A stretch of DNA of 34,225 bases from Clostridia bacterium (GTDB lineage Bacteria > Bacillota > TC1 > UBA5767), in assembly GCA_030625965.1 (NCBI GenBank), contig DAOUPV010000018.1:1-34225 (forward strand), given 5' to 3'. The position numbers were made by a program, and so were the translations under genes. Below are positions 9,632-27,837 of this stretch, one piece after another. Below the pieces are notes generated by a model, which was not told where the DNA came from, searched no databases, and saw nothing but the letters and a program-made list of their open reading frames with translations. How positions within the stretch are numbered: position 1 is the first letter of the stretch; each line of letters starts with the position of its first letter.

Positions 9632-10906
9632 TCAGATTGTGCTACTGGCCAGGTGTTTCTTGTAGATCTTTATAATTATTTTGGTGCCGATATTTTTTGT
9701 TGATTCCACATGATAGGTGAAGGCATCTTCAAAATGCAACTTTAACCGTTCGATGGTATTAGCAAGGCCATAATGGGTATCGGTGCTGAGATGCTTGTCA
9801 TTGGTAAGCGGTGACTTCTTTATATTGGTGAAGAAGCGCTCCATCTGCTCGTCATCCATGCCGGCGCCATTGTCCTCGATGGTGATGGTGTAGTAGTTGT
9901 CTGATTCCCGTCCCAAGATCTGAACGATGCCTTCCCGGTCCAGCGGTTCCAGGCCATGGATAATTGAATTTTCCACGAAAATCTGAAGCGAGAAGAAGGG
10001 AAGCATCAGGTTTTTGAGTGAGTCATCGATGTCGATGAGGAATTTTACCCGTTCACCGAAGCGGAAGTTCTGCAGGTAGAGGTACTTTTCTATGTAGTTC
10101 AGTTCCTGCTCCAAGGTTACCAGATTGGTCTTATTGTGTAGGCTGTAGCGTAACATCTTGGTGAAGGTTTCCAGAATGTTCTGGGCACTGTCATATTCTT
10201 CCAACTCCAGTAATCGGATGATACTGGACAGGATGTTGAACATGAAGTGGGGATCCACCTGGTTCTGCATGGCACTCAGCTTGGCGAAGCGCAAACTGTG
10301 CTCCAATACCGTACGTTTCTTTTCCTGCTGGAAGAGGATGTCCTGTTTCTGAAGGAGCTCTTTTTCCAAAGCTTCTTTGACGTTCTTGTCTACGATGTAG
10401 TTGGCCAGCATAAAGAGGCTTTTGGCCGCCGCAATGATCCTCTGTTTGGGGATCATCATGGTCTCCTGGCGCATCTCCTTGAAACGATCCGTATTGAACC
10501 AGGGCATATTGTAGTCTTTTTCACCAATGCTTGGAAAATCTCCATCTTCAAAATCGCTACATCGTACCTGCCCGGCCATTACAGTACCTACAAACTTGTC
10601 ATCGATGATGATCGGTATGATGATATCGATCAGACCCGCATGACATTGGAATATGTAGGGCTTTTTTTGTTTCAGGGCTCTTAATGCCGCCAGCCGGTTG
10701 GAGGCGAAGCAGCAGTTGAGGCCACCTTCGTGTCCGTGGATTGCATTGCAAAAAGAACAGAAATTGGAGCCTTCTCCAAGGTGTGTGCCTTGGGCGTCGG
10801 TGAAGACCACACCCATTCCGGTCGCCAGTGCAAAGGATTCCTCGATTTCCTTAAGTGTTTCCTTGTCAATATTATGTATAGCAGTTACGAGTTTCGTAAG
10901 AGGCAT
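9632..10906 (-). CDS. Soluble PocR-domain sensor histidine kinase (LytS/YehU-type)
   Basis: A 424-residue kinase without membrane segments. Residues 12-175 are a PocR sensory domain with clustered cysteines (Cys50, Cys53, Cys65, Cys66, Cys88) and the Gly-Leu-Ile-Asp-Ile-Ile-Ile-Pro block. This fold is known from the propanediol/cobalamin regulator PocR and is thought to bind small metabolites. A coiled linker (176-205) leads to the His_kinase domain: His220 in Gln-Val-Asp-Pro-His-Phe-Met-Phe-Asn, an N-box in Phe-Val-Glu-Asn-Ser, and a G-box in Glu-Asp-Asn-Gly-Ala-Gly-Met-Asp. It is one base behind the response regulator and its ribosome binding site (AAGGAGGG) encodes that protein's last residues, indicating coupling. 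It likely senses a cytoplasmic ligand and controls the divergent operon from 12200. Confidence 0.93.
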   Translation of the reverse strand: MPLTKLVTAIHNIDKETLKEIEESFALATGMGVVFTDAQGTHLGEGSNFCSFCNAIHGHEGGLNCCFASNRLAALRALKQKKPYIFQCHAGLIDIIIPIIIDDKFVGTVMAGQVRCSDFEDGDFPSIGEKDYNMPWFNTDRFKEMRQETMMIPKQRIIAAAKSLFMLANYIVDKNVKEALEKELLQKQDILFQQEKKRTVLEHSLRFAKLSAMQNQVDPHFMFNILSSIIRLLELEEYDSAQNILETFTKMLRYSLHNKTNLVTLEQELNYIEKYLYLQNFRFGERVKFLIDIDDSLKNLMLPFFSLQIFVENSIIHGLEPLDREGIVQILGRESDNYYTITIEDNGAGMDDEQMERFFTNIKKSPLTNDKHLSTDTHYGLANTIERLKLHFEDAFTYHVESTKNIGTKIIIKIYKKHLASSTI

Positions 10907-10907
10907 A

Positions 10908-11978
10908 TTAACCCTCCTTGCAATTCGATCGGTATGCAGAAGGTGTCACTTGTCGGAAGGCTTTGAATGTCCGATTGAAGTGGCTGGTGTCGTGATACCC
11001 GACTTCGTTGGCGATTTCGCTGACCTTCAGGTTGGAATTTTCCAACAAATGGACGGCTTGGTTAATTCTCAACTCGTTCAGGAAATGAGGGAAAGACATG
11101 TTGGTCTCTTTACTGATACAGCGAGATAGGTGCGATTCGCTGAAGTGGAACTGATGGCTGAGCGTTTTCAATGTGATGTCTTCTTGGAAATTATTCTGTA
11201 TGAATTTCACAATATTCTTCGTCTGATAAATGGTTGATGAATCATGCAACAACAATTTTTCTGTTATGGCCTGTTCGCTTTCCACCAGGGCGTTCCTAAG
11301 TGCGTGGATGCTGGTGGCATTCTCCAAGCGGTCGATGGTATTGTTTTTGAATTGGTTGACATCTTCGGTGTCGAAACCGATAAGAACCATGGTTCTGCTG
11401 ATCTCGCTGATGAAATCTTTGAGGCAATGCTTGATGACAGGCGTGCCTTTGGATGATACCAGAAGTGAACGCATGAAATCATTAAAGCTACGTTTGAAAA
11501 GTTTCACATCGTAGTGCTGCATGGCCCCAATGAGAGATTTCTCTTCCATAAGGGGATAATCTGAGAGGTTGTATTGATTGTCGCAGGATTTTGTCATCTG
11601 AGTTTGTTGTCTGGATTTCTGATAGAGATTTTCAATAATCTCTGTGAGCATATAGTCTTTTGTAGGTTTGATGATGTATTCGTCTGCACCCAGGCGTAAG
11701 GCTTTCTGGGCCAGATCGAATTCGGCATAAGCTGTGTTGATGATGACCTGTATGTTCTTGTCGATGGCTTTGATTTGTTCTGTGGCTTGTAATCCGCCCA
11801 TGGTGGGCATCTTAATGTCCAATATGGCTACATCGACAGGGTTTTGGCGGGCATATTCAACAGCATCCTTTCCATTGTTTGCAGTGTGGACAACCTGAAA
11901 ATGATCGTTTTTGGATAAGATCTTGTTAAGGTATTTCATCTCCAGCATTTCGTCTTCCGCAATCAGAATGCGAATCAT
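10908..11978 (-). CDS. YesN-type response regulator with AraC/XylS DNA-binding domain
   Basis: A 356-residue regulator. The receiver domain (1-120) has acidic residues Glu8-Asp9-Glu10, phosphoacceptor Asp54 in Ile-Leu-Asp-Ile-Lys-Met-Pro, Thr82 and Lys104. A middle region (about 140-245) has no motif I recognise. Residues 255-352 form two helix-turn-helix units of the AraC family, ending in the signature Glu-Val-Gly-Tyr-His-Asp-Thr-Ser-His-Phe-Asn-Arg-Thr-Phe-Lys. An AAAGGGGGAA ribosome binding site precedes ATG 11978. It partners the PocR kinase downstream. The divergent position relative to the SDR/GcvP-like operon, with repeated motifs in the shared intergenic region, makes that operon the likely target. 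Confidence 0.95.
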   Translation of the reverse strand: MIRILIAEDEMLEMKYLNKILSKNDHFQVVHTANNGKDAVEYARQNPVDVAILDIKMPTMGGLQATEQIKAIDKNIQVIINTAYAEFDLAQKALRLGADEYIIKPTKDYMLTEIIENLYQKSRQQTQMTKSCDNQYNLSDYPLMEEKSLIGAMQHYDVKLFKRSFNDFMRSLLVSSKGTPVIKHCLKDFISEISRTMVLIGFDTEDVNQFKNNTIDRLENATSIHALRNALVESEQAITEKLLLHDSSTIYQTKNIVKFIQNNFQEDITLKTLSHQFHFSESHLSRCISKETNMSFPHFLNELRINQAVHLLENSNLKVSEIANEVGYHDTSHFNRTFKAFRQVTPSAYRSNCKEG

Positions 11979-12199: not shown

Positions 12200-13009
12200 A
12201 TGATCATGCACAGGAAGAAGAAACTTGATGGCCGCATTGCACTTGTCACGGGAGCAGCCAAAGGAAACGGTTTAGGTGGAGCTCTTGGATTGGCCCGGCA
12301 TGGAGCCAAAGTCTATCTTACGGATCTCGACGAGGCGGTTTACGAACGTGCTGAGGAGATGAGAAAAAGAGGGATTGAGGCTGAAGGGGTATTGATGGAT
12401 GTGTGTGATGTAGACTCCGTGAAGGAAACGATCAGTAAAATCGTACGCACGGAAGGCCGAATCGACATTCTGTTCAACAATGCTGGAGTCATCAAGGTGA
12501 AACCTTTTATGGAGATGAGTGATGATGAACGGGATTTTCATTTCGACGTGAATGTGAAAGGCGTTTGGAACTGTGCACGGGCCGTCTATCCACACATGGT
12601 GGAGAAGGACTACGGCAAGATCATTAATATGTCGTCTGTCACTGGAACTAGCGTAGTCGATGAAGGGGAGACAGCCTACGCTACGACTAAGGCAGCTATA
12701 TGGGGATTCACCAAAGCCCTGGCCTATGAGGGCGCCCAATATGGCATCAATGTGAATGCCATATGCCCAGGCTACATACTGACTCCTATGGCCAGACAGA
12801 TTGCCGTGGAATCCAATCCTGACGATCCCCAGGCAGCACTTGATGGTATTGCTGTGGCAGTACCGCTTGGTCGTCTTGGGACCATGGAGGAGATAGGAGA
12901 TCTGGTTGCATTCCTGGCCAGCGATGAATCGGCTTACCTTGTTGGTACCCAAATTGTGATTGACGGCGGAAGCACTTTGCCTGAAACCTTCAGTGCAGTG
13001 GGATTTTGA
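12200..13009 (+). CDS. Short-chain dehydrogenase/reductase, UcpA-like
   Basis: A 269-residue classical SDR. The nucleotide motif is Thr17-Gly-Ala-Ala-Lys-Gly-Asn-Gly24, with Asn where Ile is usual. Asp42 ends the second strand, which suggests NAD(H). Asn-Asn-Ala-Gly is at 93-96, and the catalytic set is Ser146, Tyr160 and Lys164. The Ser-Ser-Val-Thr-Gly block, Gly-Glu-Thr-Ala-Tyr-Ala-x-Thr-Lys-Ala-Ala, the Ile-Cys-Pro-Gly-Tyr stretch and the C-terminal Asp-Gly-Gly-Ser-Thr-Leu-Pro-Glu-Thr strongly resemble E. coli UcpA, an SDR of uncertain physiological substrate. GGAGG precedes ATG 12200; ATG 12206 is also possible. It is the first gene divergent from the PocR/YesN regulators. A 231-base gap with a repeat of the candidate operator separates it from the GcvP-like genes. 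Confidence 0.88.
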   Translation: MIMHRKKKLDGRIALVTGAAKGNGLGGALGLARHGAKVYLTDLDEAVYERAEEMRKRGIEAEGVLMDVCDVDSVKETISKIVRTEGRIDILFNNAGVIKVKPFMEMSDDERDFHFDVNVKGVWNCARAVYPHMVEKDYGKIINMSSVTGTSVVDEGETAYATTKAAIWGFTKALAYEGAQYGINVNAICPGYILTPMARQIAVESNPDDPQAALDGIAVAVPLGRLGTMEEIGDLVAFLASDESAYLVGTQIVIDGGSTLPETFSAVGF

Positions 13010-13240
13010 CGGATATATTCAAGCAAAGAACATGAATATGCAACAAATATAAACGTCATCGGTGCATGACAAGAATTGACAATTTATGCTTGGAAGTGTC
13101 CGTAGGATTTTACATTGTTATGGTGAATCAATAGACGTAGGACTTAAAGAATCAAATTATGATGTTTGTGCCGAATTGATTGGGGGGATGAGCGACTAGG
13201 CGCAATGCAATGAAAAACTAATAAATTGGAGGGAAACTTA
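13010..13240. promoter_or_regulatory. Leader/regulatory region of the GcvP-like operon
   Basis: It contains TTGACA at about 13077 without a convincing -10 at 17 bases, an exact copy of TCCGTAGGAT (13099-13108) shared with the SDR upstream region, and a relative GACGTAGGAC (13134-13143). No intrinsic terminator follows the SDR gene, so read-through is possible. I looked for glycine riboswitch core elements and did not find them. GGAGGG just ahead of 13241 is the ribosome binding site. Confidence 0.45.
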
Positions 13241-14629
13241 ATGAGCGGTAAAGGTAATATTGTATATCCTTATATTCCTAATTCAGTACCTGATGTAAGA
13301 CGGGCGATGTTGGACGAGTTGGGTTTTGAAAGCGAAGAGGACATCTATAAAGAGATACCCGATCGACTGAGATTTAAAGGTGAGATGAAATTGCCAGCCC
13401 CTATCCATTCTGAGGCCAGGTTGCAAAGACATGTAGAGAAGATTCTCGCGAAGAATGAAAACGTCAAAGACAATATCAGTTTCTTAGGCGGAGGTACTTG
13501 GAATCACTACGTACCAGCACTCTGCGATACCATTGGTGGACGTGATGAGATTTTAACTTCTTATGTCGGTGAAGCCTTCACCGACCATGGAAAGTTCCAA
13601 ATATTATTTGAGAGCACAAGTATGCTGGGCGACCTAACCGGTTTCGAAGCATGCAATACTCCGACCTATGACTGGCCGAATGCTGTTGCTATCACTTCAA
13701 GAATGGCAGCCAGAACTACCGGAAGAAAAGAAATTCTGGTATCTGAAAATATCGGTCCAGAAAGAAAAGTTATCAATGAAAACTACTGCAAACCAGACCT
13801 TAAAATAGTTGAAGTGAAATATGACTTTGAAAACCGTTGCCTGGATCTAGCGGATCTCAAAAGCAAGGTTTCTGATAATACTGCGTTGATATACTTCGAA
13901 AGCCCGTCATATCTGGGATTCCTGGAAACTCAAGGCGCAGAGATTGTTGAAATCGCGCACGCCAAAGGTGCGCTGGTAGCCGTCGGTGTAGATCCCACTT
14001 CTTTGGGTATCTTGGAAGCCCCTGGCGACTACGGTGCTGACTACGCTGTCGGCGAATTGCAGCCTCTTGGTGTCCACATGCAATGCGGCGGTGGCCTAGG
14101 TGGCTTCATCGCAACCAAAGACGAAGAGAAATTCGTAGCTGAATATCCTTCCTTGCTGTTTGGTGTACTGCCAACTGTAAAAGAGGGTGAATATGGATTC
14201 GGTCAGGTTGCTTTTGAAAGAACTTCCTATGGTTCCCGTGAAAAAGGTAAAGATTTCATTGGTACTTGTGCAGCATTGCACGGTATGATTGCAGCCGTAT
14301 ACTTAGCACTTATGGGTCCCGGCGGTATGAAGGATCTCGGATCTACCATCATGCAGCGCATGGCTTATGCAAAAGCTGAACTGGCTAAGGTTCCCGGCGT
14401 GAAACTATATGACGGTTACAACTTCAAGGAATTCGTAGTCAACTTTGATGATTTCGGAAAATCCGTTGCAGAAGTTAATAAGGCACTCCTCAAGAAGAAA
14501 ATCTTCGGCGGTATCGATTTGACGAAGAGCTTCCCGGAGCTTGGCAATTCCGCTTTGTATTGCGTTACCGAAATGTTGTCGAAAGAAGATATCGATGATT
14601 TGGTAGTTGCATTGAACGAAATGTGCTAA
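13241..14629 (+). CDS. Diverged GcvPA-like subunit (glycine dehydrogenase subunit 1 paralogue)
   Basis: A 462-residue protein with the GcvPA architecture: Tyr-Ile-Pro-Asn at 11-14, Ile-Pro-x-x-x-Arg-Phe-Lys-Gly around 39-47, and length close to the roughly 450 expected. In two-subunit P-proteins this subunit helps form the interface active site. Here most hallmark motifs are changed. Phe-Leu-Gly-Ala-Gly-x-Tyr-x-His is Phe-Leu-Gly-Gly-Gly-Thr-Trp-Asn-His (81-89). The Tyr-Gln-Pro-Glu-x-Ser-Gln-Gly loop is replaced at 108-117. Tyr-Asp-Gly-Ala is Tyr-Asp-Trp-Pro (143-146). The conserved Arg-Arg-Glu-Lys-Ala-Thr-Ser-Asn-Ile-Cys-Thr block is replaced by a Ser-Arg-Glu-Lys-Gly-Lys-Asp-Phe stretch (332-339). 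ATG 13241 follows GGAGGG. It should pair with the gene 37 bases downstream. A changed substrate is inferred. Confidence 0.82.
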   Translation: MSGKGNIVYPYIPNSVPDVRRAMLDELGFESEEDIYKEIPDRLRFKGEMKLPAPIHSEARLQRHVEKILAKNENVKDNISFLGGGTWNHYVPALCDTIGGRDEILTSYVGEAFTDHGKFQILFESTSMLGDLTGFEACNTPTYDWPNAVAITSRMAARTTGRKEILVSENIGPERKVINENYCKPDLKIVEVKYDFENRCLDLADLKSKVSDNTALIYFESPSYLGFLETQGAEIVEIAHAKGALVAVGVDPTSLGILEAPGDYGADYAVGELQPLGVHMQCGGGLGGFIATKDEEKFVAEYPSLLFGVLPTVKEGEYGFGQVAFERTSYGSREKGKDFIGTCAALHGMIAAVYLALMGPGGMKDLGSTIMQRMAYAKAELAKVPGVKLYDGYNFKEFVVNFDDFGKSVAEVNKALLKKKIFGGIDLTKSFPELGNSALYCVTEMLSKEDIDDLVVALNEMC

Positions 14630-14666
14630 TTGGGTTAAAAAAATCAAAATGGAGGTTGAAGTATAG

Positions 14667-16250
14667 ATGAGTAAACCATATGTAAGAACGAATTTCCACG
14701 AAGCTCGCTGGGATGAACCGATGATATATGAGCTTTCTACTCCAGGCACCAGAGGTATATTAGTTCCTGAAGTCGAGGATGAAATCGTTGATGCTGTTGG
14801 CGACGTAGCAGCAGCCTTGCCGGACAGCCTTAAAAGAAGCGCACCGCTTCTGTTGCCGGAAGTTGACCAAAAACACGTTTTGGCACACTACATTCACCTG
14901 ACTCAGGAAACTATGGGCTCCAACTTAAGTAATGACTTAAGTGAAGGAACCTGTACAATGAAATACAATCCACGTTTAAGTGAAGCGATGTCTATGAATC
15001 CGGACTTTGCAGAGATTCATCCGGAACAGGATGACAGCACTGTTCAAGGCACTTTGGAAATATTCTACAAGTTCGAACAGATCATGAAGGAAGTTTCCGG
15101 AATGGATCGATTTAGTTTCCAACCGGGTGGTGGTAACCATGCCGTTTACTGTGCATCATCCGTAATGCGCGCTTACCACGCTTCCAGGAAAGATGACAAG
15201 AGAGATACCATCATCACCACTATCTTCTCACACCCCTGTGATGCAGCGGCTCCCTGTACAGCCGGTTATAACGTTGTGACCCTGTACCCGGATGAGCAAG
15301 GTATCCCTGATTACGAAGGCTTGAAAAAAGCTGTAGCTGAAATTGGCGATCACTTGGCTGGTTTCTTCATGACCAACCCTGAGGACATCGGTATTTACAA
15401 TCCGAACATCGACAAGTTTGTAGAACTGGTTCACTCTGTTGGCGGTCTGTGCTACTATGACCAAGCCAATGCCAACGCCTTCTTGGGCGTGGTTAGAGCC
15501 AGAGAAGCAGGCGTCGACATGTGTCATTTCAATGTACACAAGACTTTCGGTACCCCGCATGGTGGTGAAGGCCCAGCAAACGGCGCTTTCGGTTGCCGTG
15601 AATTCCTGAGTAAATTCTTACCGGTTCCGACCATTGAATTTGACGGAGAAAAATATTTCAGAGACTATGACAGACCCGACAGCTTCGGTAAAGTCAGAGG
15701 GTACATCGGTACTGCCGGCGTAATCCTGAGAGCTTACAGCTGGACCATGATGCATGGTGCAGAAGGTCTTAGAATGTGTGCAAATATCTCTGTACTGAAC
15801 AACAACTATCTGGAGAAAATGCTTCTATCCATCAAAGGATTGGGCGAAGCATTCCTCGGAAATGGTATCACCAGACAAGAGCAATGTCGTTACACCTGGG
15901 AAGAGCTCAAGAACGACACTGGTGTCGGCACCGACGACATCAACAAACGAGTTGGTGACTTCGGTATTCCTTGGTACTGGGCTTCCCATCATCCATGGGT
16001 CATTCCCGAGCCTATGACTCTGGAGCCTTGCGAGACATATAGCAAGTGTGATCTGGAAGAATACTATCTGAGCTTGAAACTGGTAGCAGAAGAAGCATAC
16101 GATAATCCTGAAGTTGTACTTTCGGCGCCACACAGACAAGCATCTCATGATCTTGCCAATCCGGAAGATCTGGATGATCCAGAAAAATGGGCAACCACTT
16201 GGAGAGCCTTCTTGAGAAAACATGGCGACAAGTATCTTAAAGTGAAATAG
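14667..16250 (+). CDS. Diverged GcvPB-like PLP subunit (glycine dehydrogenase subunit 2 paralogue)
   Basis: A 527-residue PLP fold-type I protein, about 40 longer than usual GcvPB through a charged C-terminal tail (from residue 495). Retained: Cys-Thr-Met-Lys-Tyr-Asn-Pro (96-102), His189 aligned with the PLP-stacking histidine, Asp265 of the Tyr-Asp-x-Ala-Asn motif, and Lys292 in His-Lys-Thr, the Schiff-base lysine. Changed: Ala-His-Gly-Glu is Asn-His-Ala-Val (157-160), His-Gly-Thr-Asn-Pro-Ala-Ser is His-Pro-Cys-Asp-Ala-Ala-Ala (189-195), the glycine loop Pro-His-Gly-Gly-Gly-Gly-Pro-Gly is Pro-His-Gly-Gly-Glu-Gly-Pro-Ala (297-304), and an aromatic-rich Trp-Tyr-Trp stretch stands at 436-438. 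PLP chemistry should persist; glycine specificity and H-protein use are doubtful. Confidence 0.83.
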   Translation: MSKPYVRTNFHEARWDEPMIYELSTPGTRGILVPEVEDEIVDAVGDVAAALPDSLKRSAPLLLPEVDQKHVLAHYIHLTQETMGSNLSNDLSEGTCTMKYNPRLSEAMSMNPDFAEIHPEQDDSTVQGTLEIFYKFEQIMKEVSGMDRFSFQPGGGNHAVYCASSVMRAYHASRKDDKRDTIITTIFSHPCDAAAPCTAGYNVVTLYPDEQGIPDYEGLKKAVAEIGDHLAGFFMTNPEDIGIYNPNIDKFVELVHSVGGLCYYDQANANAFLGVVRAREAGVDMCHFNVHKTFGTPHGGEGPANGAFGCREFLSKFLPVPTIEFDGEKYFRDYDRPDSFGKVRGYIGTAGVILRAYSWTMMHGAEGLRMCANISVLNNNYLEKMLLSIKGLGEAFLGNGITRQEQCRYTWEELKNDTGVGTDDINKRVGDFGIPWYWASHHPWVIPEPMTLEPCETYSKCDLEEYYLSLKLVAEEAYDNPEVVLSAPHRQASHDLANPEDLDDPEKWATTWRAFLRKHGDKYLKVK

Positions 16251-16327: not shown

Positions 16328-17452
16328 TTGGCTAAAAAAATCGGAGTTATAGTAAATCCAGTAGCTGGAATAGGCGGAAGAGTCGGCCTCAAGGGGTCTG
16401 ACGGGGAAGCAATACTGGCCAAAGCATTGGCATTGGGTGCAAAACCGGAGTGCCCGAACAAGGCAGTTGTGGCAATCAGCCAATTCAAAGATTTTCAGGA
16501 CGAACCCTTGGAGATCTATACCTATCCCAAAGAAATGGGAGAGGATGAAATGCGTGCTGCCGGTCTTACCCCCATAGTAATCGGGGAAATTGATTCTGGA
16601 CATACTACCCCGGACGATACCGTCAGGGCTGCCAAGGACCTGCTAGCGCTTGGTGTGGAACTTATTTTATTTGCGGGTGGAGATGGTACTGCCAGGAACG
16701 TACTGGATGCAGTGGGTGAAGAAATCGCTGTGTTGGGCGTACCAGGTGGATGCAAAATTCATTCCGCAGTATATGCCATCAACCCGAAGACCGCAGGAAA
16801 ACTGGTATTGGAATTTTTACTAGGTAAAGTACAGGACTTGAAAGAGTCTGAAGTCATGGATATCGATGAGGATGCTTTCCGAGAAGGCGTGCTACGTGCC
16901 AGACTATATGGCTATATGAGAGTGCCCAATGAGAAGAAAATGGTGCAGAACCTGAAAAGTGGCCGAGGTTATGGTGAAGAAGCCGCCCTCGACTTGGTTG
17001 CACGATACATTGCCTTCAACTTGGAAGAAGATGTTCTCTATGTCATGGGTCCTGGATCGACTGTCCGCGGCGTCATGAACAAGTTGGAACTTCCAAATAC
17101 CTTGTTGGGTGTTGATTTGGTATACAACAACAAGGTGATTGCCAACGATGTGAACGAAAAAGGGATCCTGGATGTCTTGGCGCAGTATGACAAGGCTCGG
17201 ATCATCATAACCGTAATTGGGGGACAAGGCTATTTATTCGGCAGAGGAAACCAACAACTCAGTCCGGCCGTTATTCGTGAAGTAGGGCTGGACAATATCA
17301 AGGTTATAGCTACAAAGAATAAAATGTTCTCATTGTTCGCTCAACCACTTTTAGTTGATACAGGTGACGAAAGTCTAAATGAAGAATTGAGCGGATATGC
17401 AAGAGTGACTGTTGGTTACGGCGAGTCTGTGATGTTCAAAGTCAATGCTTGA
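16328..17452 (+). CDS. ATP-NAD kinase-like protein (COG3199 type)
   Basis: A 374-residue protein of the NAD kinase/diacylglycerol kinase superfamily. It has Ile-Val-Asn-Pro-Val-Ala-Gly-Ile-Gly-Gly at 8-17 and the phosphate-binding Gly-Gly-Asp-Gly-Thr-Ala-Arg at 117-123. Length and N-terminus match the long NAD-kinase-like family that also includes proteins from acetoin clusters (AcoX). It would make NADP from NAD, or phosphorylate a related small molecule. The start is TTG 16328, behind AGAAGGA. It follows the two GcvP-like genes, after the hairpin, and precedes the permease by 26 bases, so it is probably cotranscribed. Why a dedicated NAD kinase-like gene sits here is unclear; the flanking SDRs look NAD(H)-dependent from their acidic residue after the second strand. 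Confidence 0.83.
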   Translation: MAKKIGVIVNPVAGIGGRVGLKGSDGEAILAKALALGAKPECPNKAVVAISQFKDFQDEPLEIYTYPKEMGEDEMRAAGLTPIVIGEIDSGHTTPDDTVRAAKDLLALGVELILFAGGDGTARNVLDAVGEEIAVLGVPGGCKIHSAVYAINPKTAGKLVLEFLLGKVQDLKESEVMDIDEDAFREGVLRARLYGYMRVPNEKKMVQNLKSGRGYGEEAALDLVARYIAFNLEEDVLYVMGPGSTVRGVMNKLELPNTLLGVDLVYNNKVIANDVNEKGILDVLAQYDKARIIITVIGGQGYLFGRGNQQLSPAVIREVGLDNIKVIATKNKMFSLFAQPLLVDTGDESLNEELSGYARVTVGYGESVMFKVNA

Positions 17453-17478: not shown

Positions 17479-18930
17479 ATGTCAGAAAATCTTGGAATCA
17501 GTCCAGATACTGGATCACGTATGGAAGAATCCGGCAAACTTAAGAAGAGTTTAAGACTGCTTTATGTTTATGCATTGGCGACAGGCGCAATTCTTACGTT
17601 TATCGGATACTGGGATGGTATTTTCTTGACTGGTGCAGGTCCTGCAACGTTTTTATCATTTTTCCTAATGACTTTAATGGTTTTACCAGTTGCGTTCGTT
17701 TACTGTGAACTGACTGCACTGTTCCCCAACACAGGCGCTGAGTTGGTATTTAATACCATCGGCTTGAATAAATACTGGGGATTCTTCTCCGCATGGGCAA
17801 TCATGGCAGCTTGGATCGCCGTACCGCCCGCAGCTGTAATGGGTATCTTGGAGTGGATCAACTATGCATTCCGTTTGGATATGTCGTTCACCACGATCGT
17901 TACCATCGCAGCTGTCTTATTAGTACTTTATACTGCACTTAGCTTGAGTGATATCAACCTGTCAGGTCAGATTCAGACAGTCATGCTATTCGCAGCTTTA
18001 TTTGGTGTTACCTTGACCGGAATTATCTTCTTGTTCTCCGGACATTGGGATATCGCTAACTTTACTCCTTTCTTCCAATCGGCACATGCCGGTGGTGGAG
18101 CTGCAGGAACTGGTGGGATACCCGGTTGGATTATCGGTACCGCGCTCATCGTTACACCGTACTTCGGTTTCGAAACAGTTCCCCAGTTGGTTGAGGAAGG
18201 TGACTTCCCGATTACTGATACAAGTAAAGCCATCTTGGGTTCTGTAATTACATGTGGCGCACTGTATGTATTCTTCTTCTTTGCTCTTGCAGGGATGGGC
18301 GACTGGACTACTCTTACTGCGGCAGGTACCAATGTTCCGTTCGTAGCCATTAAAGTAATCGAAAATACATTCGGTTGGTATGGATATGCCTTGTTCTTTG
18401 GGGTAACAGCCGTATTGTTCACTATCAGTACCTGTATCCTGGGTTTCTGGATTTCCACAGTACGTCTGATGTTCGCTATGGGCAGACAGGGCTTCTTGCC
18501 TAAAATCTTCTCCAAAGTTAATAAGCATCAGCAACCAATCGTTCCTAACCTGGTAGTATTGGGACTTTCTCTGGGCGCCATCTTCATCATGAATGCTGGT
18601 ACCTATCTGGAAGACTTCTTCACAGTTATGGCACTTTCCGTGGCCATCGCTTACACCATCACCATGTACTCATCGACCAGAATTGCTATCAATCATCCCG
18701 AGTGGAATCGACCATATATTCTTAAAGGCGGCCAAGGATTCAGATGGTTTGCATTCTTCATCGCTATCGGCATCGCCATCCTGTGTGCTCTCGGTCTTCC
18801 GACTGGTGCCTGGATCAGCTGGGGCTGGTACATGGGTATCGGCGTAGTGCTGATTGCCTTCATGGCAGCTTTCCGTTGGAAGAAAGATCCTGTATGGATG
18901 GTTACTCCTGACGGCGAAAAAGAGTTTTAA
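17479..18930 (+). CDS. APC-superfamily amino-acid permease/antiporter
   Basis: A 483-residue protein with about twelve hydrophobic segments, beginning after a 30-residue polar N-terminus. The first segment contains Ala-Thr-Gly-Ala-Ile-Leu-Thr-Phe, matching the unwound helix 1 glycine motif of APC transporters, and the Tyr-Phe-Gly-Phe-Glu-Thr stretch in the middle is the helix 6 equivalent. It has a strong AGGAGG ribosome binding site and is the last gene before a terminator. Family members import amino acids or exchange an amino acid for its decarboxylation product. Linkage with a PLP enzyme related to a decarboxylase makes it the probable substrate carrier, possibly an antiporter. The transported compound cannot be told from the sequence. 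Confidence 0.9.
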   Translation: MSENLGISPDTGSRMEESGKLKKSLRLLYVYALATGAILTFIGYWDGIFLTGAGPATFLSFFLMTLMVLPVAFVYCELTALFPNTGAELVFNTIGLNKYWGFFSAWAIMAAWIAVPPAAVMGILEWINYAFRLDMSFTTIVTIAAVLLVLYTALSLSDINLSGQIQTVMLFAALFGVTLTGIIFLFSGHWDIANFTPFFQSAHAGGGAAGTGGIPGWIIGTALIVTPYFGFETVPQLVEEGDFPITDTSKAILGSVITCGALYVFFFFALAGMGDWTTLTAAGTNVPFVAIKVIENTFGWYGYALFFGVTAVLFTISTCILGFWISTVRLMFAMGRQGFLPKIFSKVNKHQQPIVPNLVVLGLSLGAIFIMNAGTYLEDFFTVMALSVAIAYTITMYSSTRIAINHPEWNRPYILKGGQGFRWFAFFIAIGIAILCALGLPTGAWISWGWYMGIGVVLIAFMAAFRWKKDPVWMVTPDGEKEF

Positions 18931-19002: not shown

Positions 19003-20226
19003 GTGAATATGAGGAATACAAGCCATCGCTACCTGATTGTCACGGTCATGTTCCTAGGCCTGATGATGCAGAACATCCTGTGGTTTGCACCGGCTCCGTT
19101 CCTGTCGCTCATCGTGGATGACCTGGGGATGAACATGATGCAAGCTGGACTGAGCATGTCCGTAATCGGACTCATAACAGCTATTTCAGGTATGTTTCTG
19201 GGTGAGCTTTTTATAAGAATCGGCATTAAGCACACGTTTAGTATCGCACTCGTGCTGATGGCACTGGGATCATTTATGAATCTGGTGGTCACTAAGTTCT
19301 GGATACTTTTATCAGCAAGGATTCTAATTGGAATAGGATTCGGATTTTGCCTGCCGGTCGCCGGCACCGTAATCATGACTTACTTTTCTGAAGGGGAGAG
19401 ACCTTATCTTAACACGATCAACTCCCTGTTACCCTATTTTGCAACAGCCATGACATTCATCTTAACCATACCGGTCTTCCAATTCTTTGGGTCTTCCTGG
19501 CGAATCACCTTGGCTCTGCCAGGTGTGTTTTCCCTGGGGGCACTCATACTCTGGCAAAAATACTACCAGGAAAAAGAGAGATCGGTTGTCCGGGTGGAAG
19601 AAAAGCTGGACAGAAATATCCTTAAGGAAATAATCGGTAACAAACAGGTGATATTGCTCACGATTGCGGATGCCTGCGATATGTGGAGTTTTCAATTCGT
19701 TGCCACCTATTTGGCTACCTTCTTCTATACAGAGGCCATGATGACACTGGCCAGATCCTCATACCTGATGTCGATATTCCCCATCGCGGGAATCATTGCT
19801 GGGTTTAGCTGTGGTATCGCCATGGGCAGGATCGGGCTCAGAAAACCCTTTACCTGGCCCCTGCATATTATGATCTTTGTGGGCACGACCATGGCCTTGT
19901 ATCTTGACGGAACTGGAAGAATGATCGGCATATTCCTATCCGGATTCGGCAACGCTGGTTGGGCGCCTGCTCTTTTCACCATGCCCATGGAATTTGAGAA
20001 TATGACACCGGAAAAGGTGGGTGCAGTGTATGCACTCATGCTTTCCGCTGGCTTCTTTGCCGCCTTCGTTTCACCCTTTCTGGGTGGCTATCTGACTGAA
20101 TTCATGACTCTTAGAACTGTAATTTTTTTGTTTTCAATGCCATCGCTGTTGGCCGCATTTGTTACTTGGAAGATGAAGGAAACTGGCTCGGCAAAGCGTA
20201 CCAAGCGCGATAAGTTAATAATTTAG
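19003..20226 (+). CDS. Major facilitator superfamily transporter
   Basis: About 407 residues with twelve hydrophobic segments in two halves, separated by a charged central loop (near residues 185-205). A charged Arg-Ile-Gly-Ile-Lys loop follows the second segment in place of the classical motif A. The shape resembles CynX/NimT-like or anion/metabolite MFS importers, but I cannot name the substrate. The start is uncertain: GTG 19003 and ATG 19009 are both in frame and the AGGTGA at 19001-19006 is tight for either. It lies 13 bases after the T-run of a terminator and 13 bases before the YwlG-like gene, so it heads a three-gene unit. It may import the substrate, or export a product, of the same pathway. 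Confidence 0.85.
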   Translation: MNMRNTSHRYLIVTVMFLGLMMQNILWFAPAPFLSLIVDDLGMNMMQAGLSMSVIGLITAISGMFLGELFIRIGIKHTFSIALVLMALGSFMNLVVTKFWILLSARILIGIGFGFCLPVAGTVIMTYFSEGERPYLNTINSLLPYFATAMTFILTIPVFQFFGSSWRITLALPGVFSLGALILWQKYYQEKERSVVRVEEKLDRNILKEIIGNKQVILLTIADACDMWSFQFVATYLATFFYTEAMMTLARSSYLMSIFPIAGIIAGFSCGIAMGRIGLRKPFTWPLHIMIFVGTTMALYLDGTGRMIGIFLSGFGNAGWAPALFTMPMEFENMTPEKVGAVYALMLSAGFFAAFVSPFLGGYLTEFMTLRTVIFLFSMPSLLAAFVTWKMKETGSAKRTKRDKLII

Positions 20227-20239
20227 TGAGGAGATTCGA

Positions 20240-20803
20240 ATGATGGAAATGAACTATGATTTGGAAAGAAGCATCGTACAAGATGCCAGAGAGGCAGTAC
20301 GGGAGCTGATTGAGGCCAGTGCACTTTCACCAGGAAATCTGCTGGTCATCGGTTGCAGCACCAGTGAGATTGCCGGCTCAGTCATCGGGAAAAATTCAGC
20401 CCCGCAGCTGGGAGAACTGATCATTGGGGCCATACTGCCACTAATCAAGGACCATGGCCTGTACCTGGCAACTCAGTGTTGCGAACACCTGAACCGGGCT
20501 TTGGTCGTCGATGCGGACTATGCCGAGCGAAATTGCCTGGATCGTGTGAGGGTGGTGCCTCACCCCAAGGCGGGAGGTTCATTCAGCAGTGCCTATTACC
20601 GATATCTGGAAAATCCAGCTATGGTTGAGGCCATTATGGCGGACGCCGGAATCGATATTGGAGATACATTTATTGGGATGCACCTGAAACGGGTGGCCAT
20701 ACCGGTGCGACTGTCTATTAAAAGCATAGGACTGGCCCATGTTACTGCGGCTAGGACGCGTCCCAAACTGATCGGGGGGGAACGAGCCAAGTATGATATT
20801 TGA
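20240..20803 (+). CDS. UPF0340/TIGR01440 family protein (YwlG-like)
   Basis: A 187-residue protein of the YwlG family. Diagnostic stretches are Leu-Leu-Val-Ile-Gly-Cys-Ser-Thr-Ser-Glu near residues 33-42, Gln-Cys-Cys-Glu-His-Leu-Asn-Arg-Ala near 78-86, Pro-His-Pro-Lys-Ala-Gly-Gly-Ser near 106-113, and Met-His-Leu-Lys-Arg-Val-Ala near 147-153. Biochemical function is unknown. In Bacillus the gene stands next to glyA (serine hydroxymethyltransferase), so a link to glycine/serine chemistry is plausible, which is notable beside GcvP-like genes. GAGGAG precedes ATG 20240; alternative ATGs are at 20243 and 20249. It is in one operon with the MFS gene and the following SDR. Confidence 0.88.
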   Translation: MMEMNYDLERSIVQDAREAVRELIEASALSPGNLLVIGCSTSEIAGSVIGKNSAPQLGELIIGAILPLIKDHGLYLATQCCEHLNRALVVDADYAERNCLDRVRVVPHPKAGGSFSSAYYRYLENPAMVEAIMADAGIDIGDTFIGMHLKRVAIPVRLSIKSIGLAHVTAARTRPKLIGGERAKYDI

Positions 20804-20853: not shown

Positions 20854-21630
20854 ATGGAGAGACTGATTGGTAAGGTAGCTGTTATTTCAGGCGGGGCCTT
20901 GGGTATCGGTGAGGCGGACTGCCTGCTTTTTGCGAGAGAGGGCGCTAAAGTTGTAATCGGGGATATTAATGTGGAAGCAGGAGAGGCGCTGGCCGGAAAG
21001 ATCAAGGATGAGGGTTTCGAGGCCAGCTTCTGCTTCTTGGATGTTTCCAAGGAGGCAGCATGGAAAAAACTCTTTGCTTATACGATTGAAAAGTATGGTA
21101 AAGTGAACGTTTTGGTGAATAATGCTGGTGTATCCTTGGGAAAAGATGTCGAAACCACGACACTCGAAGAGTGGAACTGGCTGATGGGCATCAATTCTAC
21201 AGGCGTTTTCCTTGGAACCAAATATGGAATCATCAACATGAAGAACAACGGTGAGGACTGCTCCATCGTGAATCGATCTTCCATTGACGGACAGGTAGGT
21301 GAAGCGGGACTGGCAGCCTATTGTGCCTCCAAAGGATCGGTAACAATCCTAACCAAGTCCGCCGCCTTGGCATGCGGAGAGAAAGGGTATAAGATCCGGG
21401 TGAATTCGGTTCATCCCGGTTATGTACATACCTCACTTACTGAGAAAGAAGCGGCCGATTCAGGCCTTACCAAGGATGAGTATTTTGCCAAGGTCAGCAA
21501 GATGCATCCCATCGGGTATATCGGCAGGCCTATGGATATCGCCTATGCGGATCTATACCTGGCCTCAGATGAATCAATCTTCAGTACTGGGTCAGAGATC
21601 ACTGCCGATGGTGGCTGGACTGCACAATAA
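20854..21630 (+). CDS. Short-chain dehydrogenase/reductase (second SDR)
   Basis: A 258-residue classical SDR with Ser12-Gly-Gly-Ala-Leu-Gly-Ile-Gly19, Asp37 at the end of the second strand (NAD(H) preference), Asn-Asn-Ala-Gly at 89-92, and catalytic Ser143, Tyr156 and Lys160. It resembles NAD-dependent secondary alcohol dehydrogenases of the 3-alpha-hydroxysteroid/cyclohexanol type, but the substrate is not evident. GAGAGGAGAG precedes ATG 20854. It ends the MFS-YwlG-SDR unit and is followed by a strong terminator. Together with the UcpA-like SDR it brackets the GcvP-like block, suggesting that the pathway handles a hydroxy or carbonyl intermediate. Confidence 0.9.
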   Translation: MERLIGKVAVISGGALGIGEADCLLFAREGAKVVIGDINVEAGEALAGKIKDEGFEASFCFLDVSKEAAWKKLFAYTIEKYGKVNVLVNNAGVSLGKDVETTTLEEWNWLMGINSTGVFLGTKYGIINMKNNGEDCSIVNRSSIDGQVGEAGLAAYCASKGSVTILTKSAALACGEKGYKIRVNSVHPGYVHTSLTEKEAADSGLTKDEYFAKVSKMHPIGYIGRPMDIAYADLYLASDESIFSTGSEITADGGWTAQ

Positions 21631-27509: not shown

Positions 27510-27585
27510 GGTGGGTGTAGTTCAAAGGTAGAGCGCCAGATTGTGGTTCTGGATGTTGTGGGTTCGAGTCCCATCATCCACCCCA
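27510..27585 (+). tRNA. tRNA-His (anticodon GTG)
   Basis: A complete cloverleaf: the acceptor arm GTGGGTG pairs with CATCCAC through one G-U pair, the anticodon loop carries GTG, and the T-arm is GGTTCGAGTCC. The extra 5' G at 27510 opposite C at 27582 is the G-1 identity element of tRNA-His. CCA is encoded. Confidence 0.95.
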
Positions 27586-27590
27586 AATAT

Positions 27591-27667
27591 GCTCCATTAG
27601 CTCAGTTGGCTAGAGCACCTGACTTTTAATCAGGGTGTCCCGCGTTCGAGTCGCGGATGGGGTACCA
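27591..27667 (+). tRNA. tRNA-Lys (anticodon TTT)
   Basis: Cloverleaf with anticodon stem CCTGA/TCAGG and loop CTTTTAA, T-arm around GTTCGAG, and encoded CCA. The acceptor arm (GCTCCAT with ATGGGGT) includes a G-U at the first pair and a U-G at the third, slightly unusual. Five bases separate it from tRNA-His. Confidence 0.93.
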
Positions 27668-27672
27668 TAAGT

Positions 27673-27757
27673 GCGGGTGTGGCGGAATTGGCAGACGCGC
27701 TAGATTTAGGATCTAGTGGTGAAAACCGTGGAGGTTCAAGTCCTCTCACCCGCACCA
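27673..27757 (+). tRNA. tRNA-Leu (anticodon TAG)
   Basis: Class II tRNA of 85 bases with a long variable arm, acceptor GCGGGTG/CACCCGC, anticodon loop TTTAGGA (anticodon TAG), T-arm GGTTCAAGTCC and encoded CCA. Confidence 0.95.
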
Positions 27758-27762
27758 CATAT

Positions 27763-27837
27763 GCGGAAGTGGCTCAGTGGTAGAGCATTGCCTTGCCAAG
27801 GCGAGGGTCGCGAGTTCGAATCTCGTCTTCCGCTCCA
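27763..27837 (+). tRNA. tRNA-Gly (anticodon GCC)
   Basis: Cloverleaf with acceptor GCGGAAG/CTTCCGC, anticodon loop TTGCCAA, T-arm GAGTTCGAATCTC and encoded CCA. It is the last of four tightly packed tRNA genes. Confidence 0.95.

Follow-up and report, generated by a model that had tools for sequence, protein, structure and literature searches.

The P-protein (glycine dehydrogenase) of the glycine cleavage system (GCS) is generally treated as an enzyme of one reaction. In its human form, GLDC, the second Tyr of the YTPYQPE motif (Tyr164) is annotated as an active-site residue, and a docking study predicted the interface with the H-protein at His371, Ile372, and Arg373, in a block of about residues 366 to 376 (PMC7259800). 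Here we describe a gene pair from a Clostridia bacterium (assembly GCA_030625965.1, contig DAOUPV010000018.1; the whole stretch of 34,225 nucleotides that was analyzed is called the window) that resembles the two-subunit P-protein, GcvPA/GcvPB (1wyt/1wyu and 9a73). The pair consists of an alpha-like subunit, GcvPA' (positions 13241 to 14629, forward strand; 462 amino acids from an ATG start), and a beta-like, pyridoxal-phosphate (PLP)-binding subunit, GcvPB' (14667 to 16250, forward strand; 527 amino acids). Shared with GcvPA/GcvPB are the adjacent genes, homology over the full length, the fold, and the Lys, Asp, and His residues of the PLP site. The pair differs (i) in sequence, with identities of about 35 to 40% (GcvPB') and 28 to 36% (GcvPA') and with replaced glycine and H-protein motifs, and (ii) in its setting, with a kinase-like gene as partner, no gcvT or gcvH in the operon, and some hosts that have no GCS. 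We estimate at about 0.6 the probability that this pair, hereafter GcvP', represents a separate two-subunit PLP family that no longer serves the GCS and whose substrate is some amino acid besides glycine, with no need for the lipoyl H-protein.

Relationship to canonical P-proteins

Both subunits match the NCBIfam models of the P-protein over their full length (GcvPA', 435 bits against NF001696, cutoff 364; GcvPB', 490 bits against NF003346, cutoff 441), and their best sequence matches in the PDB are the T. thermophilus P-protein subunits (1wyt_A at 1e-54 and 1wyt_B at 8e-72, respectively). The best PDB fold matches of the AlphaFold models of GcvPA' and GcvPB' (pTM 0.67 and 0.70) are P-protein subunits as well; with this fold, taken from models of moderate confidence, and its PLP lysine, GcvPB' would be a fold-type-I PLP enzyme. 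The same equivalog models accept the pair well over the cutoff in the window and at three other loci (L068, L106, and L112), and RefSeq plasmid records of family members bear the names gcvPA/gcvPB. The initial annotation had read both subunits as aligning along their length with GcvPA/GcvPB and had expected pipelines to label them so, and both statements were borne out. A canonical gcvPA/gcvPB pair is encoded elsewhere in the host genome, on contig C40 (C40:100476-103248); a GcvT gene lies immediately 5' of it (C40:99387-100136), and the same contig carries GcvH (C40:13315-13671).

About 60 pairs were sampled, with GcvPB' identities of 41 to 91%, from Bacillota, Actinomycetota, Alphaproteobacteria, and one haloarchaeon. 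The host of the window is a Sedimentibacter-like member of the Bacillota; the closest GcvPB' loci are those of Sedimentibacter saalensis and its relatives (82 to 91% identity), and a scan of contigs of GTDB representatives yielded 35 loci with GcvPB' relatives (60 to 87% best-segment identity), among which the named organisms are Bacillota. Plasmid records with 41 to 47% identity come from Rhodococcus, Gemmobacter, Antarctobacter, Sphingomonas, Paracoccus, Roseicitreum, and the haloarchaeon Natronosalvus. GcvPB' is present in 26 of 398 sampled Bacillota genomes, in which a clean gap separates the family (48 to 100% identity, E of 2e-168 or lower) from canonical GcvPB (40% or less, E of about 1e-103 or higher). 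In maximum-likelihood trees of GcvPA and GcvPB, both proteins fall outside the canonical clade: a single branch (SH-aLRT 100) separates all 52 sampled GcvPB' sequences, and likewise all 51 sampled GcvPA' sequences, from the canonical ones, and the two subunit clades stand on long stems (1.23 changes per site for GcvPB'). Rooting at the A/B duplication suggests that the family descends from the two-subunit P-protein, the branches that bear on nesting inside two-subunit GcvP being without strong support.

A GcvPB' relative in two frames (48 to 51% identity, same order) at G005:C1:193699-195188 is either a broken copy or an assembly error, and at least two GcvP' copies exist in genome G032 (contigs C87, C117, and C50), where no glycine cleavage system was found. 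A Natronorubrum bangense plasmid (L077) has gcvPA/gcvPB genes without adjacent gcvT or gcvH that group in the tree with haloarchaeal canonical proteins.

Active-site residues

Residues were counted in 58 to 61 family members and in 35 canonical proteins. GcvPA' residue numbers count from TTG 13226; the best start is ATG 13241, with GGAGG at 13228 to 13232, a ribosome site that the TTG overlaps. Lys292 (PLP Schiff base), Asp265 (pyridine), and His189 (stacking) of GcvPB' are present in 61 of 61 members and are also fixed in the canonical proteins, in agreement with the initial annotation, which had described all three as kept. The canonical motifs AHGTNP, TNPNT, HEF, and PTVYF (GcvPB) and YTPYQPE (GcvPA) are replaced in essentially all members, whereas AHGTNP, HEF, the second Tyr of YxxY, and HIRR are invariant or nearly so in the 35 canonical proteins. 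In GcvPB', AHGTNP has become SHP(C)(D) across the family, with Pro190 in place of the Gly after the stacking His, and TNP(N/S)T has become NPED, with Asp240 for Thr in 61/61. AHEF is changed to RxEQxR, which brings in Arg403 and Arg408 (each 61/61) and turns His into Glu405 (59/61), and PTVYFP is changed to W-x-S-H-x-P, with a new Ser440 and a Tyr-to-His441 switch (each 61/61) and Trp438 for Pro. Two further Trp residues of GcvPB' are Trp15 and Trp359, the latter replacing Tyr. In GcvPA', the second Tyr of YTPYQPE is deleted, REQHIRREKATSN has turned into RTSY(A/G)SREKGKDF, and other switches are Tyr to Trp92, Ser/Gln to Asp120/His121, Ser to Pro146, and Gly to Trp150. Judged by homology, the changed residues of GcvPB' and GcvPA' would lie in the substrate pocket, which is thus predicted to be rebuilt.

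The loss of the His-Gly-Thr-Asn-Pro-Ala-Ser motif and the entry of Trp at several positions (15, 359, and 438 of GcvPB'; 92 and 150 of GcvPA'; probably in the pocket) had been recognized in the window and hold for the family. The statement that nearly all motifs are replaced is right for most of them and slightly overstated, in that GcvPA' mostly retains Gly88/Gly90, the first YxxY Tyr, and the Arg and Lys within its REK block. The Glu gained in the glycine loop is real in the window (Glu301 of GcvPB') but occurs in only 12 of 61 members, Ser or Gly being commoner, and was rejected as a family marker. Where canonical GcvPA has REQHIRR(E/D)KATSN, GcvPA' thus carries a different segment, and by analogy with the docking in human GLDC it appears to have mostly lost the predicted H-protein interface.

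The kinase-like partner and the proposed function

The conserved partner of the pair, overlooked in the initial annotation, is a gene for an ATP-NAD-kinase-like protein of 374 amino acids (16328 to 17452, forward strand). The protein has both Pfam NAD kinase domains (PF01513 and PF20143), a weak diacylglycerol-kinase match (DAGK_cat), and the motif AGGDGT; it gave no NCBIfam family match and no PDB sequence match to an E value of 0.01, solved NAD kinases included. The gene was found at 36 of the first loci compared and, once the set had been enlarged, at 52 loci; at almost all of them it adjoins the pair. Among the 398 Bacillota genomes, 22 genomes carry it and 21 of these also have GcvPB' (hypergeometric P of about 3e-29, uncorrected for shared ancestry); carriers span many families. 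In G267 and G372, the kinase-like gene and GcvP' are present in the same genome without being adjacent, a sign that the coupling is functional and goes beyond inheritance as one operon. The kinase-like partner probably belongs to the same pathway as GcvP'. In G372, the gene closes a GcvPB-Ald-LipS1-LipS2-LplA-Lpd-like run (L160:7852-15889), and GcvP' lies about 85 kb away on that contig. Relatives of the kinase (39 to 40% identity) overlap a HisC/CobD-like PLP gene in the host genome (contig C141), in a congener, and in Peptoclostridium, with no GcvP' beside them, and so GcvP' is not the sole PLP enzyme with which the kinase group is paired. These overlaps lie at L157:7667-9726 (host genome), L158:7676-9744, and L076:7992-10068, and the PLP gene is short and scores below the HisC cutoff.

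Decarboxylation or cleavage of a bond at C-alpha is the usual scope of the fold-type-I PLP fold. We infer that GcvPA'B' is a neofunctionalized fold-type-I enzyme derived from the two-subunit glycine dehydrogenase: a polar, perhaps hydroxylated, amino acid would be imported by the neighboring permease, GcvPA'B' would decarboxylate it or cleave it at C-alpha without an aminomethyl-accepting H-protein, and the neighboring short-chain dehydrogenases would process the imported amino acid, in a role that is probably catabolic. The simplest option for the kinase-like protein is that it phosphorylates the substrate or the product, and the new invariant arginines of GcvPB' may form an anion-binding site. 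Phosphorylation before the PLP step is a speculative idea drawn from the kinase-like partner, these arginines, and the second kinase-PLP gene pair. Its full form, in which the kinase transfers phosphate to an amino alcohol or to an amino acid that bears a hydroxyl group and GcvPA'B' decarboxylates or cleaves the phosphorylated compound without a lipoyl carrier, is offered tentatively and is rather doubtful.

A variant of the proposed function differs in the kinase step only: the substrate of GcvPA'B' would be unphosphorylated, and the kinase-like protein would either supply an NADP-dependent short-chain dehydrogenase with NADP(H) or phosphorylate a later intermediate. This is possible, though short of probable. 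The Pfam NAD kinase families and the prevalence of short-chain dehydrogenases among the neighbors are in line with it; an NAD kinase activity would be of general use, yet nearly all of the sampled Bacillota genomes that carry the gene also have GcvPB', sequence comparison recognizes no solved NAD kinase, and relatives elsewhere overlap a PLP gene.

Hosts and the glycine cleavage system

Genome searches found no GcvH, GcvT, canonical GcvP, or detectable LplA-type lipoate ligase in four hosts of GcvP' (G097, G342, G032, and G066), where every GcvP match is either GcvPA' of the family itself or a fragment. For GcvH, G097 and G342 gave no more than partial matches, with scores near 1e-4. In a further host, G267 (92% complete), no GcvH, GcvT, or canonical GcvP was found. 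The genomes are 99% (G097), 94% (G342), and 94% (G032, with 7% contamination) complete, and G097, G342, G032, and G267 are each from a different family. An incomplete draft could account for a single case but is an unlikely cause in several independent hosts. Thus, GcvP' need not act with a lipoyl H-protein.

Several observations weigh against the main reading. The genomes in which GcvH is missing are drafts; canonical GCS and lipoate genes adjoin several GcvP' loci (L037, L042, L123, L116, and L053), and the kinase-like gene of G372 sits in a run of such genes; the kinase-like gene was not found in four genomes with GcvPB' (G096, G220, G303, and G341); the two AlphaFold models reach moderate confidence only; and the enzymes beside the module vary between loci and indicate no single substrate. 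The adjacency may reflect a connection with glycine or lipoyl metabolism, with which a glycine-yielding pathway would also fit, and some hosts could use lipoyl machinery together with the GcvP' pathway. Most GcvP' hosts do encode GcvH (26/29 and 18/24 genomes with a match).

Two explanations build on this association. GcvP' might be the core of a non-glycine cleavage system that decarboxylates another amino acid, passes the product to lipoyl H-protein, and shares GcvH, GcvT, and Lpd. The frequency of GcvH in the hosts and the repeated proximity to GcvH, Lpd, LplA, and LipS-like genes, G372 included, speak for it; we regard it as unlikely in view of the four hosts without GcvH and LplA and of the loss of most of the predicted H-interface motif from GcvPA'. 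Still less probable is a second isozyme of glycine dehydrogenase, active in other conditions and still forming aminomethyl-H-protein. An isozyme would account for the scores over the NCBIfam equivalog cutoffs, the GcvH genes of most hosts, and the loci that adjoin GCS genes. Against it stand the replacement throughout the family of AHGTNP, HEF, the second YxxY Tyr, and HIRR, the hosts without H-, T-, and P-protein and lipoate ligase, the dedicated kinase-like partner, and the canonical pair kept by the host genome itself.

The pair is under strong purifying selection, with dN/dS of 0.03 to 0.05 against close relatives, where synonymous sites are unsaturated, and gene decay was rejected on this ground. 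A degenerating duplicate or non-catalytic regulator, to which the long stem branches might point, is therefore very improbable, given also the invariant PLP lysine and reading frames that are open in nearly all of the approximately 60 loci. The initial annotation's proposal of "a new substrate or reaction, not decay" thus gains support from the separate clades, the low dN/dS, the residues fixed across phyla, and the genomes without H-, T-, and canonical P-protein.

Genomic setting of the module

In the window, the genes for a UcpA-like short-chain dehydrogenase (12200 to 13009, just 5' of GcvPA'), GcvPA', GcvPB', the kinase-like protein, an APC-family amino acid permease (17479 to 18930; a probable substrate importer), an MFS transporter (19003 to 20226; an accessory recurring at 5 loci), a DUF436/TIGR01440 protein (20240 to 20803; an accessory recurring at 9 module loci), and a second short-chain dehydrogenase (20854 to 21630) follow each other on the forward strand. 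Divergent from them, on the reverse strand, are a sensor histidine kinase with a PocR ligand-binding domain (9632 to 10906) and its partner, a response regulator with an AraC-type helix-turn-helix (10908 to 11978), which would likely control the operon; homologues of the PocR kinase adjoin the module at other loci too. The gene set looks like a regulated catabolic operon. Among 119 proteins encoded around the module, 22 are short-chain dehydrogenases (the commonest), 16 are amino acid permeases, and 8 are DUF436 proteins. Acyl-CoA synthetase, amine oxidase, deacylase, DeoC, MtbB, and others were each found at few loci only, and a single substrate could not be read from them; glycerol catabolism, considered because of GlpK, was rejected on the same ground. 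Neither a glycine riboswitch nor another RNA element was found near the module in the window, in which the only RNAs are four tRNAs (a cluster at 27511 to 27834). In G212 (L119:12997-14043), the module is followed by a pyrrolysine-type dimethylamine methyltransferase gene and then by corrinoid- and MttB-like genes; the dimeth_PyL match stops at position 355 of 466, which would follow from reading the frame no further than an amber codon.

A widespread, misannotated sister family would widen the known scope of the P-protein fold, and claims of glycine cleavage or of the reductive glycine pathway that rest on gcvPA/gcvPB labels alone would need correcting: in G097, for instance, the labels would imply a glycine dehydrogenase, whereas neither H- nor T-protein was found there. 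An orphan kinase-like family is also linked to a testable pathway. If the phosphorylation model is true, GcvP' would extend the P-protein family to a substrate other than glycine, a kind of member of which we found none described, and the kinase group would have a defined role. In the open-access literature, we found nothing on a GcvP' paralogue, on its pairing with a kinase, or from Formimonas proteomics.

Comparison with known systems

The kinase-like protein shares the GGDGT nucleotide-site motif and both Pfam domains with the ATP-NAD-kinase family, from which it differs by having no relative among NCBIfam families or PDB sequences and by its near restriction to genomes with GcvPB' in the Bacillota sample. 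It presumably also resembles AcoX of acetoin clusters; acetoin catabolism was rejected, as no acetoin dehydrogenase was seen. AibC of the Rhodococcus Aib cluster is an aminomalonate decarboxylase annotated as serine hydroxymethyltransferase, with a permease and dehydrogenases in its operon (PMC7782822). AibC and GcvP' are thus both PLP enzymes annotated as one-carbon enzymes, whereas AibC belongs to the serine hydroxymethyltransferase family and has no kinase. After the P-proteins, the best PDB fold matches of the GcvPB' model are sphingosine-1-phosphate lyases (12 to 14% identity), single-subunit enzymes whose likeness may be only a generic fold-type-I resemblance. Sphingosine-1-phosphate lyase acts after a DAGK-type kinase. 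Likewise, the L-threonine kinase PduX and the L-threonine-O-3-phosphate decarboxylase CobD place a kinase and a PLP decarboxylase in series. This serial logic would be shared by the GcvP' module under one of the models proposed here, with a different kinase fold and a different PLP subfamily.

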